Of a stretch of 37,922 nucleotides of DNA, positions 23,566 to 37,922 are shown one piece after another. The DNA is from Verrucomicrobiota bacterium (lineage in GTDB: Bacteria > Verrucomicrobiota > Verrucomicrobiia > Limisphaerales > UBA9464), in NCBI GenBank assembly GCA_947454005.1, contig CANGMH010000006.1, forward strand, positions 1-37,922, given 5' to 3'. Position 1 is the first letter of the stretch. Every line of letters begins with the position of its first letter. The notes beneath the pieces were generated by a model. It did no database searches. It worked only from the letters and a program-made list of their open reading frames with translations, and was not told where the DNA came from. Position numbers and translations under genes: made by a program.

Positions 23566-23616
23566 TTCGTCTGCCGCCGCTTGGGAAGCTGGGCTACGAA
23601 CTGGTCCGACCCCCGC

Positions 23617-26274
23617 ATGGAATACTTCACGCTCTTGTTCCTCTCGCTCTCGGTGTTCGCCGTACCGTTCTGGGTGGCCTCCATCGGGGGACGGTTCCGG
23701 ACGCGCTTTACAGAGACGGCCCGGCGGCGGCTCAAGCACAACACTTGGGCGTTCCTTGGCCTGCTGTTCGTGCAATGGCCGCTCCACCTGAGCGTGCTTT
23801 GGCAAAGTGTCCGCTACGGCGAGTGGCCACCCGGCATCCGGCTATCCGGCACCGCCTGCTGGACGGCGTTGACGTTGATCCTGCTCTGGTCGCGACGAGA
23901 GCTTGTCCGCAAAGCCGCCGCTGAACCTCCTCCGCTCGTGCCTCCGGGCGAGCCCGCCGCGCCTTCGCTCCGGATCCAGCTCGCGCTGATCTTCCTGCCG
24001 GTGCTCGTGCTGGCGATCGTGGGACTGGTGGCGTTGTCGCGCGACCGGGCCGCGGTCGAAGCAGAAGCCCGCCGACGCGCAGGTGAGCTGGCGCAAGAGC
24101 TGACCGTGAAGCTCAGCGGGTCGCTACCGAGCCGCCTCGGCGAGGTCGAACTCGCCGGCAACGTCTGGCTCGGGGACGGGATCGTCGGCCCTGCGAATGT
24201 CCATTGGCCGGGGGCACTTCCCTCCAATTTTGACCCGAACCATGTCGCGGACATTTTCCTCGATCGCGGGCGGAAGAATTTCCGGACCCAGCCGGAAGCG
24301 TCGCTCCCGGTGGAGATCCGCTTCGCCGCGGACGGGACCTTGAACGGGCCCCGGCCTTATCGTCCCGTGCCTCAACCACCCGAGTGGGTCCGTGAGCTTG
24401 CTGGCGAGACGGCGGTGGCGTGGGAGAACCTGCGAGCCGCGGAGAACGACATCGACCATCCCGAACGGCTGTCGCCCGCGGTGCAGGCCGTCGCCGAGGT
24501 GACCCGGGAACTGGGCCCGAACCGGCAGGCGGCGTTCCTGTCGCTCCGGCGCACCGACGCCGAGGCGGCGAAAGCGGTCGGCCAGCTGCTCGAGTTCGGC
24601 ACGCGTGCGGTCGTGGACCGGCTGGAGACCGAGAACGGTCTACCGCTGGGTGCGGTCGCGTTCGCCGAAGCTCTCCGACGCGCGCCGGAGGCCAAGTTGG
24701 ATCGAGCTTGGTTCACTCTTCTGCGCGACCTCACGTTCACACAACCGTCGTGCCTGACGCCGTGGGCGATCGACCAAGGCGACGAGATGGCGCGCCGATC
24801 CGGCGATATCGAGCACCTCAGGCTCATGCGCGAACTGCGCGCCCGATGGACCGGTGCCGAACGACTTCGCGGGCTTGGTCGCCAGCTGGGCGAGGAGGCC
24901 CGACCCACGCCGACGACACTCCGCAACCTGTGGCTGACGAACCAGGCCGCGGCTTGGTTCGCAGCCATCCAACCCGGGGTTTCGACGACGTATACTTCCA
25001 CCAATGGCCAAGGCATCACGATCACCAACCAGGAATCCCGGGTGCGGCTCTACTCCGCCGACACGCTCGGGTTGTCGGCCTTCAATGCTCTCCACACGAT
25101 GGCGACGGCGGATGGCCGCGAGCGCGGCACTCCGCCGCGGCTTCCCGCCGGGCTGAAGCTGTCCATCGAACTGGAAGGGCGTCGTCTGGTCCTGCCGAGC
25201 GCCTCTTGGATTCTGGACGAACCCGCGGGGCCGGCGCCGTTGCTCGCCGAAGCGACCGAGGTGTTCCGGTTGGAGGGGATGATGCACCCCACTGGCGAGA
25301 GATTCGAAACGTGGCCGTCTCATCCCCGTTTCACGGTGCGGGTGCATCTCGCCGACCCGGCGGCGCTGTTCGCGGCACAACGCCGGCAGCAGTGGCTCTT
25401 CGGCGGCATGATCCTGTCCGTCGCCGGGATCGCGGGCCTCGGCGGCTGGCAGGCCAACCGCGCCTTCCGCCGGCAGCTCGCGCTCAGCGAGGAGAAATCG
25501 AACTTCGTCTCGAGCGTCTCGCACGAACTGCGCGCGCCCCTCGCCAGCATGAGGCTGCTCGCCGAGGGATTGGCCGAGGGCCGCGTGACCGAGGAGTCCA
25601 AACGCCGCGAATACGCCGGCTTCCTCGTGCAGGAGACGCGCCGGCTCGGCTCGCTGGTCGAGAACGTCCTCGACTTCGCCCGCATCGAACAGGGCCGCCA
25701 ACGTTACGACTTCGAGCTGACCGACGTGGGCCGGCTCGTCCGCGAGACGGTGAAGCTGCTCCAACCCCGCGCCGCCGAATCGGGCATCGGACTGACTTGT
25801 CCGACGGACGAGCCGGCTTGCGCGGAGGATCACCCTCAACCCGTCACGGCAACACTCGGCCGCGCTTCCCGATCGGGATCTTCCGATCCTCGAACTGAGA
25901 TCGCCTGCGACGGCCCTGCCATCCAGCGCGCCCTGCTCAACCTGCTCGACAACGCCTTCAAGCACGCGCCCGTCGGCAGCGCGGTGACGGTCACGCTCGG
26001 GTCGATCCCCGGTCCGCGATCCGCGATCTTCATTTCTGTGGCCGACTCCGGCCCCGGCATCCCGGCGGAGGACCAAGCGCGCATCTTCGAGCGCTTCTAC
26101 CGGCGCGGCTCCGAGCTGCGCCGCGAGACGCAAGGCGTCGGCCTCGGCCTGGCCATCGTGAAGCACATCGTGGAGGCCCACGGCGGCCGCGTGCGCGTGG
26201 CGAGCACGGTCGGTCAGGGTGCGACCTTCACGCTGGAACTGCCGGCCGCTCCGCGGAGGGGGAGTGATCAGTGA
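23617..26274 (+). CDS. Sensor histidine kinase with multiple N-terminal TM segments and a large extracytoplasmic region
   Basis: 'KSNFVSSVSHELRAPLASMRLLAEGLAEG' (H box), 'IQRALLNLLDNAFKHAP' (N box), 'VADSGPGIP', 'FERFYRRGSELRRETQGVGLGLAIVKHIVEAHGGRVRVAST' (F/G2 boxes). Start at MEYFTLL. Confidence 0.95.
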   Translation: MEYFTLLFLSLSVFAVPFWVASIGGRFRTRFTETARRRLKHNTWAFLGLLFVQWPLHLSVLWQSVRYGEWPPGIRLSGTACWTALTLILLWSRRELVRKAAAEPPPLVPPGEPAAPSLRIQLALIFLPVLVLAIVGLVALSRDRAAVEAEARRRAGELAQELTVKLSGSLPSRLGEVELAGNVWLGDGIVGPANVHWPGALPSNFDPNHVADIFLDRGRKNFRTQPEASLPVEIRFAADGTLNGPRPYRPVPQPPEWVRELAGETAVAWENLRAAENDIDHPERLSPAVQAVAEVTRELGPNRQAAFLSLRRTDAEAAKAVGQLLEFGTRAVVDRLETENGLPLGAVAFAEALRRAPEAKLDRAWFTLLRDLTFTQPSCLTPWAIDQGDEMARRSGDIEHLRLMRELRARWTGAERLRGLGRQLGEEARPTPTTLRNLWLTNQAAAWFAAIQPGVSTTYTSTNGQGITITNQESRVRLYSADTLGLSAFNALHTMATADGRERGTPPRLPAGLKLSIELEGRRLVLPSASWILDEPAGPAPLLAEATEVFRLEGMMHPTGERFETWPSHPRFTVRVHLADPAALFAAQRRQQWLFGGMILSVAGIAGLGGWQANRAFRRQLALSEEKSNFVSSVSHELRAPLASMRLLAEGLAEGRVTEESKRREYAGFLVQETRRLGSLVENVLDFARIEQGRQRYDFELTDVGRLVRETVKLLQPRAAESGIGLTCPTDEPACAEDHPQPVTATLGRASRSGSSDPRTEIACDGPAIQRALLNLLDNAFKHAPVGSAVTVTLGSIPGPRSAIFISVADSGPGIPAEDQARIFERFYRRGSELRRETQGVGLGLAIVKHIVEAHGGRVRVASTVGQGATFTLELPAAPRRGSDQ

Positions 26275-26388
26275 TCAGTGTTCAGTATCCAGTGAACAGC
26301 ATCCAGGACCTCGTCCCACTCACTCACTGGCTTACCCACTTACCGGCTCACTGACCCACTGGATACTGGTTACTGATCACTGATCACT
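26263..26388. repeat. 126-bp inverted-repeat element with heptamer tandem arms
   Basis: Left arm 26263-26294 AGTGATCAGTGATCAGTGTTCAGTATCCAGTG; right arm 26357-26388 is its reverse complement with 3 differences. Confidence 0.85.
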
Positions 26389-26401
26389 TCCCCGCTGCCA
26401 A

Positions 26402-27091
26402 ATGCCCCGCATCCTCATCATCGAAGACGAGCTGCCGATGCGCACCGCGCTGGCCGATCTGCTCACCAGCGAAGGCCACCGCGTGCTCGTCGCCGCCGAC
26501 GGCGAGGACGGCCTCGCCCGCGCCCTCGCTGAGCAGCCCGATCTCATCCTGCTCGACGTGATGATGCCCCGGCTCGACGGCTTCGCCCTCGCCGGTGAGC
26601 TGCGACGGCTCGGCCGCTCCACACCCATCCTCATGCTCACGGCCAAGGGGCAGGTGGACGACCGCGTGCGCGGCCTCGACGCCGGCGCGGATGATTATCT
26701 GGTGAAGCCGTTCAGCGGCGACGAGCTGCTCGCGCGGGTGCGGGCGCTGCTCCGGCGGCATCAGCGCGACGCGGTCCGCGTGCCCGACCGCATGCGGCTC
26801 GGCGCGGTAGAGCTCGATTTCGCACGCCTCACCGCCCGACGCGACGGCCGAGCGCTGCATCTCACGCCCAAGGAATGGGCGATGCTGCGGCTGCTGCTCG
26901 AAGCGACCGGCGAACCGGTCTCGCGCGAGCGCTTCCTCGACGTGGTGTGGGGCGTGAACGCGTTCCCGACCACACGCACGGTGGACACGCACATCGCCAC
27001 CTTGCGCGCCAAGCTGGAGCCCGACCCCGATGCGCCGCGCTTCCTCAAGACGGTGCACGGCATCGGCTACAAACTGGAGGGCGCGGTGTGA
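26402..27091 (+). CDS. OmpR/PhoB-type winged-helix response regulator
   Basis: 'PRILIIEDELPMRTALADLL', 'LILLDVMMPRLDGF', 'ILMLTAKGQVDDRVRGLDAGADDYLVKPFSGDELLARV', 'HLTPKEWAMLRLLLEATGEPVSRERFLDVVWG', 'RTVDTHIATLRAKLEPDPDAPRFLKTVHGIGYKL'. Confidence 0.98.
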   Translation: MPRILIIEDELPMRTALADLLTSEGHRVLVAADGEDGLARALAEQPDLILLDVMMPRLDGFALAGELRRLGRSTPILMLTAKGQVDDRVRGLDAGADDYLVKPFSGDELLARVRALLRRHQRDAVRVPDRMRLGAVELDFARLTARRDGRALHLTPKEWAMLRLLLEATGEPVSRERFLDVVWGVNAFPTTRTVDTHIATLRAKLEPDPDAPRFLKTVHGIGYKLEGAV

Positions 27092-27129
27092 ATCAGCCGA
27101 CTTCGCCAGCCCCGTGCGAGGTCCGCGAG

Positions 27130-27386
27130 GTCCTGGACTGCGGCAGTCCTCTGCCGCTTTCGAGCGACGAATTGGTCGCGAAGAGGCACAAGAAGCGCAA
27201 AAGCCGCTGGTGGCTCCACTCGCCTCTGAGCGGAGCGCCGAGCAATGCTCGGCACGGCTGGCCACAGCACTCCACGCAGGCCGGGCGAGGTCCGGCGCTC
27301 CGGACGAAGCCATCACCGGACAGCCGCTTCTTTTGCGCCTTTTCGCGGCCGATCAAAAGCGCCAGAGGACTGGCGCACTCCAAGAC
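27130..27386. repeat. Long imperfect inverted repeat with nested hairpins (structured intergenic element)
   Basis: Left arm 27130-27209 versus reverse complement of 27321-27386; nested CGGCAG-TCCT-CTGCCG (27141-27156), GCCGAGC-AAT-GCTCGGC (27237-27253), GTCCGG-CGCT-CCGGAC (27290-27305), GCCAG-AGGA-CTGGC (27361-27374), GCTGGCG-N6-CGCCAGC (27387-27406). Confidence 0.75.
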
Positions 27387-27429
27387 GCTGGCGCGCCTTC
27401 GCCAGCCGCACGGCACCGATCGCTCCTCC

Positions 27430-27451
27430 CGATTTCACAATTCCCTGACAA
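27430..27451 (+). promoter_or_regulatory. Second copy of the 22-bp motif: CGATTTCACAATTCCCTGACAA, upstream of the SLBB protein gene
   Basis: 20/22 identical to 23544-23565; 46 nt between motif end and the ATG at 27498 (51 nt in the first copy). Confidence 0.5.
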
Positions 27452-27497
27452 CCCCGCTCCCGGACTTCCTCACGCTGTGACGCGACGATCCTCCACC

Positions 27498-28751
27498 ATG
27501 AAAACTCTGCGTTCCCTGCTCGCGCTCCTTATACTGGCTGCCCTCCCCGCCGCGGCCGCCGCGACCGATGCGCTCAACGACGCGTTGCGACGCGGTCTGC
27601 TCGCCGAAGAAGCCCAGCGTGATCTCCCGGCCGCCGTCGCGGCCTACGCGGAAGCCGTCCGCGCGGGCGACGACCTGCGCGCGTCGATGGCCACCGCTCT
27701 CTTCCGCCTCGCGGAATGCCGACGCCGTCTGGGCCAAACGAACGAGGCGCAGGGACTCTACCGCCGCTTGCTCCGCGAGTTCCAGGACCAGACGAACGTG
27801 GTCTCCTTGGCCCGCCGACAGGTCCCGAGGACGGCGGTGCGATCGCGTGGGACCGACCTGATCGAGGCCGAGCTCCGGGAGAACGCCAATGCGCTCCGGA
27901 ACGCAGCGGCCGCCGAAGCCGAATTGGCCGCCGAACTGGAGCGCTACTCCGCGATGAGACCGGAACAACTCCACTTCGCGCTGGCGGCCAGCCATCCGAC
28001 GCCGGAGCTCACCCGGTTGAAGTCGGAGCGGAACCAGGCCGAAGTGCGACGGGCGTCGCTCAACCCGGACTTCGGCCCGCAACACCCCGAGGTCCTCCGG
28101 ATCGCAGCGGTGCAGGCGAAGCTGGACGAGCAGTCGGCCAAGGAAATGGAGGGGGTGATGGGTTCTTTGACCGCCCAGTTGTCGAATCTGAGGGCGCGGA
28201 TCGACCAGGAGCGGTCGAAGAGGAATTCGCTCGCAGCGTTGCACGAAGAAGCACTGGGTTCCGGCAACCAGAACGAGGACATGCCGGTCGACCCGCGGTC
28301 GGAACAGGAGCAACTGCTGCTGCAGGAGATCAAGATCGCCGAGAACCAGGAAGCCGACCTCCGCAAACGCTTGGAGGCGGGGCGTGCCGGACAGGATCAG
28401 CTCTTCAAGTCGCAGCGCGAGGTCCTGGCGCTGAAGCGGCAGTTGGCGGCGTTCCATCCACAGATGGACGGATGGATCCCGCCGGTCAAAGCAGGCGGAG
28501 ATGCCGGCGGCACGGTCTCCGTCGTGGGCCAAGTGAGCCGGCCGGGGCGGATCGAGCTGCCGGCCGGCAAGTCCATGGATCTGATCGAAGCCATCGCGGC
28601 CAGCGGAGGGTTGACGAAGGCGTCCGAACGGAAACGGATCAAGGTACGACGCGACAACTTGGTCCAGATCCTCGACTGGGACGACGCGCTGAAGAACCGG
28701 TTCGAGCTGAGGCCAGGCGACGTGGTGGAGGTCGGCGAGATCGGATTCTGA
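27498..28751 (+). CDS. Secreted TPR-like/coiled-coil/SLBB-domain protein
   Basis: Signal 'MKTLRSLLALLILAALPAAAAATDA'; TPR-like 'FRLAECRRRLGQTNEAQGLYRRLLREF'; 'NPDFGPQHPEVLRIAAVQAKLDEQ' resembles GNVR/Wzz-type segments; C-terminal 'VSVVGQVSRPGRIELPAGKSMDLIEAIAASGGLTKASERKRIKVRRD...ELRPGDVVEVGE' SLBB-like. Confidence 0.8.
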   Translation: MKTLRSLLALLILAALPAAAAATDALNDALRRGLLAEEAQRDLPAAVAAYAEAVRAGDDLRASMATALFRLAECRRRLGQTNEAQGLYRRLLREFQDQTNVVSLARRQVPRTAVRSRGTDLIEAELRENANALRNAAAAEAELAAELERYSAMRPEQLHFALAASHPTPELTRLKSERNQAEVRRASLNPDFGPQHPEVLRIAAVQAKLDEQSAKEMEGVMGSLTAQLSNLRARIDQERSKRNSLAALHEEALGSGNQNEDMPVDPRSEQEQLLLQEIKIAENQEADLRKRLEAGRAGQDQLFKSQREVLALKRQLAAFHPQMDGWIPPVKAGGDAGGTVSVVGQVSRPGRIELPAGKSMDLIEAIAASGGLTKASERKRIKVRRDNLVQILDWDDALKNRFELRPGDVVEVGEIGF

Positions 28752-37133: not shown

Positions 37134-37922
37134 TCAGAACTTTTGCTTCAGATCCAGACCGGCTTTACCGGTGGAGGATTTGCCTTCCCCGGGCTTCTTT
37201 TCACCGGCAGGACGGCTGTCGTCGCTCTTGGAGTAGTAATCGTAGTAGTAACCGCTGTAGTAATAGTAGTAGCTGTCCTGCGAGATGTTGATGTTGTTGA
37301 GCACGACACCCAACAGCTTGCCGCCGACCTTCTCCACCATCTGCTTGGCGCGCAGCGTCATCTGCTGCGGATATTTGCGGTACTGGACCACCAGGACGGC
37401 CATGTCCACTTCGCTCGCGAGGATCGAGGCGTCGCTCACACCCATGATGGGAGGCGAATCGAAGAACACGAAGTCGTAACGGCTCTTCGCCTCGTCGATG
37501 AACGCCCTCATCGCCGAGGAGTTCAAGATGCCCATCGAACTGCTCGGAAGCTTGCCGCTGGCCATGAAATCCATGCCCGGCTGCGTTGTCGTCTGGATGA
37601 CCTCTTCGAGCTTGTTCTGCTTCAGGAGGTAGTTCGTGAGCCCCATGTTGTTGGGCACGCCGAGGATCTTATGGAGGCTGGGACGTCGAAGATCGGAGTC
37701 GACGATCAACACCCGGCTCCCTTGCTGCGCGAAGATGGTCGCAAGGTTGAAGATCGTCGTCGATTTGCCCTCACCGGCACCACCGCTGACCACGGTCATC
37801 GTCCGCAGATTTGGATCTTTCCGCGAGAACAGGATGTTTGTGCGCAAGACACGATAGGCCTCCGCATGCGGGCTCTCGGGACCTTCGTTGATCAAGGCGC
37901 CGACGTTCTGCGGGATGACGCC
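37134..37922 (-). CDS. CpsD/CapB-like bacterial tyrosine kinase (BY-kinase), N-terminus beyond right edge
   Basis: Walker A 'VVSGGAGEGKSTTIFNLA', Walker A' 'VLIVDSDLRRPSLHKILG', Walker B 'YDFVFFDSPPIMGVSDASIL', C-terminal 'YYYYYSGYYYDYYS'; frame stays open to 37922. Confidence 0.95.
   Translation of the reverse strand, partial: GVIPQNVGALINEGPESPHAEAYRVLRTNILFSRKDPNLRTMTVVSGGAGEGKSTTIFNLATIFAQQGSRVLIVDSDLRRPSLHKILGVPNNMGLTNYLLKQNKLEEVIQTTTQPGMDFMASGKLPSSSMGILNSSAMRAFIDEAKSRYDFVFFDSPPIMGVSDASILASEVDMAVLVVQYRKYPQQMTLRAKQMVEKVGGKLLGVVLNNINISQDSYYYYYSGYYYDYYSKSDDSRPAGEKKPGEGKSSTGKAGLDLKQKF

Follow-up and report, generated by a model that had tools for sequence, protein, structure and literature searches.

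Our analysis indicates that the inverted element lying between a sensor-kinase gene and a regulator gene (26263–26388) is probably one copy of a dispersed family of REP-like palindromes, in which slippage and template switching renew the repeats and whose copies are tolerated at gene ends and in linkers (rough probability 0.6). It is unlikely to be a purpose-built switch for the kinase–regulator pair. The window, i.e. the whole stretch of 37,922 nucleotides analysed here, comes from a verrucomicrobial MAG of 4.3 Mb in 460 contigs (hereafter G000).

The element is built of AGTNNNC heptamers, and its left arm matches the inverse of its right arm (32 nt each) at 29 of 32 positions, which reproduces the structure described in the initial annotation of this DNA. 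As also described there, the element provides the last residues (SDQ) and the stop codon of the kinase and ends shortly before the regulator ATG (Table 1). The mRNA hairpin expected earlier is borne out by a strong predicted fold (-74.4 kcal/mol, z -8.1). A search for AGTNNNC x3+AGT, with one mismatch allowed, gave five matches in the window, all within the element, and none in 100 shuffles. Periodicity in the left arm decays inward; the right side, read inverted and inward, passes from AGTATCC to the octamers AGTGGGTC and AGTGAGCC, and the unit period is therefore 7 with some 8. The loop has the same orientation as in the related genome G002 (forward score 22.5 versus reverse 9). The window copy contains no U-tract for intrinsic termination, and the spacer TCCCCGCTGCCAA contains no obvious Shine–Dalgarno sequence. 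The kinase carries HisKA and HATPase_c domains, with freshwater verrucomicrobial MAGs as its nearest named relatives, and the regulator carries Response_reg and Trans_reg_C. Pfam gives no match at E ≤ 0.001 for kinase residues 1 to ~630 (23581–25490). Elsewhere in the window, a minus-strand coding stretch (37214–37280) encodes a tyrosine-rich peptide, DSYYYYYSGYYYDYYSKS, resembling a bacterial tyrosine kinase tail; together with an SLBB protein (27030–28751), it suggests an exopolysaccharide export cluster.

Table 1. Coordinates of the window element and of the two genes that it separates
Feature	Position	Strand	Description
Sensor histidine kinase CDS	23581..26274	+	last four codons, AGT GAT CAG TGA (S D Q stop), fall within the left arm
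Left arm	26263..26294	+	AGTGATC AGTGATC AGTGTTC AGTATCC AGTG; letters AGTGATCAGTGATCAGTGTTCAGTATCCAGTG
Inner left units	26291..26304	+	AGTGAAC AGCATCC
Loop	26305..26344		site-specific; contains degenerate ACTCACTCACTGG-type words
Inner right octamers	26345..26360	-	AGTGAGCC, AGTGGGTC on the minus strand
Right arm	26357..26388	-	AGTGATC AGTGATC AGTAACC AGTATCC AGTG on the minus strand; inverse = AGTGATCAGTGATCAGTAACCAGTATCCAGTG
Spacer	26389..26401	+	13 nt, TCCCCGCTGCCAA
OmpR-type response regulator CDS	26402..27091	+	ATG at 26402

The search for other copies that the initial annotation had proposed found them both elsewhere in the same genome and in relatives. G000 contains at least 13 element sites: AGTNNNC x5 has 26 matches at 12 sites/contigs (versus 4 for the reversed control), and the inverted pattern adds a 13th site on contig C87. 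Many of these sites are full hairpins resembling the window copy. Counts of the inverted pattern are 6+23 in G000, 8+20 in G002, 26+41 in G003, 25+39 in G004 and 15+11 in G014, while its reversed control is absent (0) from all five. Within the genus, the inverted pattern is thus frequent in G002, G003 and G004 and has no match in G005–G007; across the phylum sample, 34 of 388 genomes match the pattern. Matches in G007, G012 and G027, and the majority in G035 (AGTCGTC, AGTTCAC and AGTCTTC), proved to be uniform direct repeats and were rejected as hairpins. Loop sequences at different sites show no relationship, and the copies have only the word in common. Single-arm arrays also exist (L003, L014 and L160). 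Locus L160 (G002:C207, ~7922) is a long one-arm heptamer array with SRQSSVV repeated, and its G000 orthologue L003 has four units only, which suggests expansion in 7-nt steps; the assignment of both loci to ORFs is possibly an artefact of the gene caller. Strings of the element sequence had no match in the literature.

We then compared the positions of the copies relative to genes, using contexts from a simple home-made gene caller and regions picked for containing elements. Intergenic two-armed copies lie in co-directional, convergent and divergent spacers in the proportions 13, 6 and 0 in G004 (n = 19), 9, 1 and 0 in G002 (n = 10) and 9, 6 and 2 in G003 (n = 17). In G004 and G002, divergent spacers account for ~23–24% of the intergenic sequence, and finding 0 of 29 copies there in these two genomes has a chance probability of ~0.0004. 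The median distance to the stop side is 4 nt in G003/G004 and 15 nt in G000/G002; to the start side it is 57.5 and 23 nt, respectively.

Two-armed copies also occur inside ORFs (5/22 in G003 and 9/28 in G004), where they are read in one frame, the left arm as SVISxxSVIS and the right arm as LITDxLITD. In G003/G004, in-frame copies are found in DnaE (DNA polymerase III alpha), a U32 peptidase, an AcrB-type pump, a flavoprotein and DUF1553-like genes (named from sequence). The U32 peptidase linker measures 14–28 aa in most relatives and 47–55 aa with the hairpin in G003/G004; in G000/G002 it holds a one-arm remnant, and in G005 a hairpin of a different heptamer (AAGTCCA). The DnaE hairpin is present in G003/G004, and the linker of G000/G002 is longer and shows no more than a degenerate trace. 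In PheT the array is single-armed, not two-armed, and only in G003/G004 do its words take the place of a 29-aa linker, with no change in length. Tandem DUF1553-like paralogues on G003:C86 (L135–L137) and G004:C60 (L131–L134) each carry a word hairpin, all at one linker (TYRQ...RDADNRLLW), and one orthologue has CGTAAATC octamers in its place.

The kinase–regulator junction itself varies among relatives. In G002, whose kinase orthologue is 85–92% identical, a similar hairpin differs in unit order and retains the SDQ-stop ending; the AGTNNNC arms of G014 have diverged; G032 carries a hairpin made of AACATCC words, and G028 one made of GGAGTGAT octamers, which also supplies the kinase stop; and G005 has an inverted spacer of ACACGGAT type. 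In G017, G007 and others the junction is 2–56 nt long and the hairpin is absent. A de novo scan detected hairpins of period 6, 7 and 8 in several genomes, with words such as AACATCC, TGGAGTGA, AGTCCCG and TAATCC, and none in shuffled sequence. Hairpins of GTCANNN words, the reversed control pattern, are frequent in some other families of the phylum, in the verrucomicrobial genomes G061, G131, G352, G228 and G103; other lineages therefore appear to use other words.

Comparisons between close species show that element positions are stable while their internal content turns over. In G000, 11 element loci (10 distinct sites, with one listed twice) could be mapped, and for each of them the orthologous spacer of G002 also bears an element; three sites map to G003/G004 as well. 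Empty sites, which the initial annotation had proposed to look for, were not found in the G000/G002 pairs; an empty orthologous site does exist in relatives at pheT. Unit numbers differ between orthologous elements. In G003/G004, four loops run opposite to the orientation of their flanks and arms and align only as the reverse complement, and a word-blind scan of 251,126 aligned bp of the two genomes recovered the same four short inversions and no others. Inverted loops were found in 0 of 10 G000/G002 pairs; for inversion the central 44 nt were scored, as global alignment with flanks masked some inversions. An apparent inversion at L019/L088 was rejected because its reverse match involves the palindromic arms only and its loop is forward. 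Loops of 30–45 nt are short for site-specific inversion. Template-switch mutation is known to flip loops (PMC8794818, PMC8604942).

The arms are imperfect tandem arrays of a 7–8 nt word (CAGTNNN); under the preferred reading, replication slippage would change unit numbers, and template switching between the arms would flip the loops. At gene 3' ends the element adds stop codons to frames running into it, and it is probably present in transcripts as a hairpin. Copies would be tolerated where insertions do little harm, i.e. at gene ends and in protein linkers. The most economical account of the window spacer is that it hosts one old copy, common to G002. An effect of this copy on kinase or regulator expression is possible and would be incidental, such as REP-like protection of the mRNA 3' end or mild attenuation; nothing singles out the kinase–regulator locus.

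Slippage and template switching alone explain neither the strict polarity of the elements nor their conserved CAGT core. The arms are oriented CAGT->loop<-ACTG; reverse-polarity hairpins (ACTG...CAGT) have no match in 11 genomes, and a local count gave 204 versus 2 reverse. Between orthologues, the CAGT core diverges by 2.7–4.5%, the NNN positions by 19–29% and the flanks by 14–19%, with detection bias able to account for at most about twofold of the low core divergence. Given this polarity and core, a selected or enzyme-driven component is possible. The copies could be selected RNA or protein-recognition elements, in which the CAGT hairpin is bound by a protein or acts as a 3'-end stabilizer or bidirectional terminator and is kept for mRNA function. 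We consider this unlikely. The conserved core with free NNN, the strict polarity, the strong predicted hairpin and the way copies hug stop codons, with few or no divergent spacers, all favour it, but copies sit in mid-ORF in dnaE, pheT and other genes, the words are wholly absent from the same-genus genomes G005–G007, orthologous junctions have other words or none, and the window copy lacks a terminator U-tract. Arm complementarity within elements does not exceed that between elements (permutation p 0.06–0.86), i.e. compensation specific to the hairpin was undetected; as the arms of one element match no better than those of others, this weighs against hairpin-specific selection.

A broader and rather improbable interpretation is that Verrucomicrobia hold an unrecognized class of word hairpins that renew themselves while keeping a strict polarity and a conserved core; permissive sites (gene ends, protein linkers) would persist, and the word in them would be replaced by lineage (CAGTNNN, AAGTCCA, AACATCC, TGGAGTGA and AGTCCCG). 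If true, it would imply a novel activity, driven by a polymerase or another enzyme, by which one word is written or homogenized genome-wide.

Mobility as a MITE- or REPIN-like element with a transposase acting in trans is very unlikely. It would fit the dispersal over unrelated sites, the empty pheT site, the gain in the U32 linker and the presence of Y1 transposases. However, the loops are unrelated between sites, so no element sequence has been copied; the G000/G002 pairs lack an empty site and three sites are common to G003/G004; and the pheT array is an equal-length replacement, not an insertion. No linkage to a RAYT-type transposase was seen: Y1_Tnp genes are found in each of the 11 genomes, whether these contain words or not, and in 12 loci no words flank them apart from one chance pair. 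Least probable of all is a dedicated attenuator or translational insulator that sets the kinase:regulator ratio, as the initial annotation had envisaged: the hairpin fills the spacer almost to the ATG and recurs in G002 and, with diverged arms, in G014, but members of the same family occupy a dozen further places in G000, copies are found next to or within numerous unrelated genes as well as in convergent spacers, and orthologous pairs elsewhere have no hairpin (G017, G007 and others) or unrelated words (G032, G028).

Under the preferred reading, an apparent regulatory hairpin in a two-component operon would thus be one copy of a genome-wide repeat family. This family offers a bacterial system for tracing, across close species, how palindromes arise, slip and flip their loops. 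The in-frame copies in dnaE and the U32 peptidase gene, together with the pheT array, indicate that the repeats also alter housekeeping proteins. The strict polarity and the conservation of the CAGT core raise the question of what recognizes or rewrites the word.

Several known systems resemble these elements in part. Template-switch mutation and the small hairpin-loop inversions of chloroplasts both invert a loop between inverted-repeat arms; here, by contrast, the inversions recur at a single repeat family within one bacterial genus, with loops of ~30–45 nt. Rickettsia palindromic elements are palindromes of ~100–150 bp kept in-frame in genes, like the in-ORF copies of G003/G004, but their copies are homologous, whereas only the word is common here. 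The MITE type differs in having a conserved body between TIRs, which is absent here, and an unsystematic look noticed no target-site duplication. Cyanobacterial STRRs are 7-bp direct tandem repeats in spacers. The initial comparison with them applies only in part: each arm forms an array of this kind, as do the single-arm loci (L003, L014 and L160), but the overall architecture is inverted, and the phylum is another. The TAACTGA heptamers known from Beggiatoaceae, cyanobacteria and Bacteroidetes repeat a fixed word in direct orientation and mostly lie immediately before start codons; some overlap upstream stop codons, and their indels come in 7-nt steps (PMC4679880). They share the heptamer unit, and their in-frame reverse complement, AGTTATC, is an AGTNNNC word; the CAGTNNN words differ in being inverted, variable in the three middle bases and placed on the stop side. 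REP/BIME elements (GTAG- and CGTC-tagged) are short dispersed palindromes by stop codons that often supply the stop and in some cases lie in ORFs (PMC3733652). The elements described here share all three features, i.e. the position near stop codons, the occurrence in ORFs and the supplied stop, and stop supply and occurrence in ORFs are therefore not unique to them. They differ in that the terminal unpaired GTAG/CGTC tag is absent, the window element starting and ending with AGTGATC/GATCACT, and in that their arms are tandem heptamer arrays around site-specific loops, as opposed to the short conserved stem of REP.
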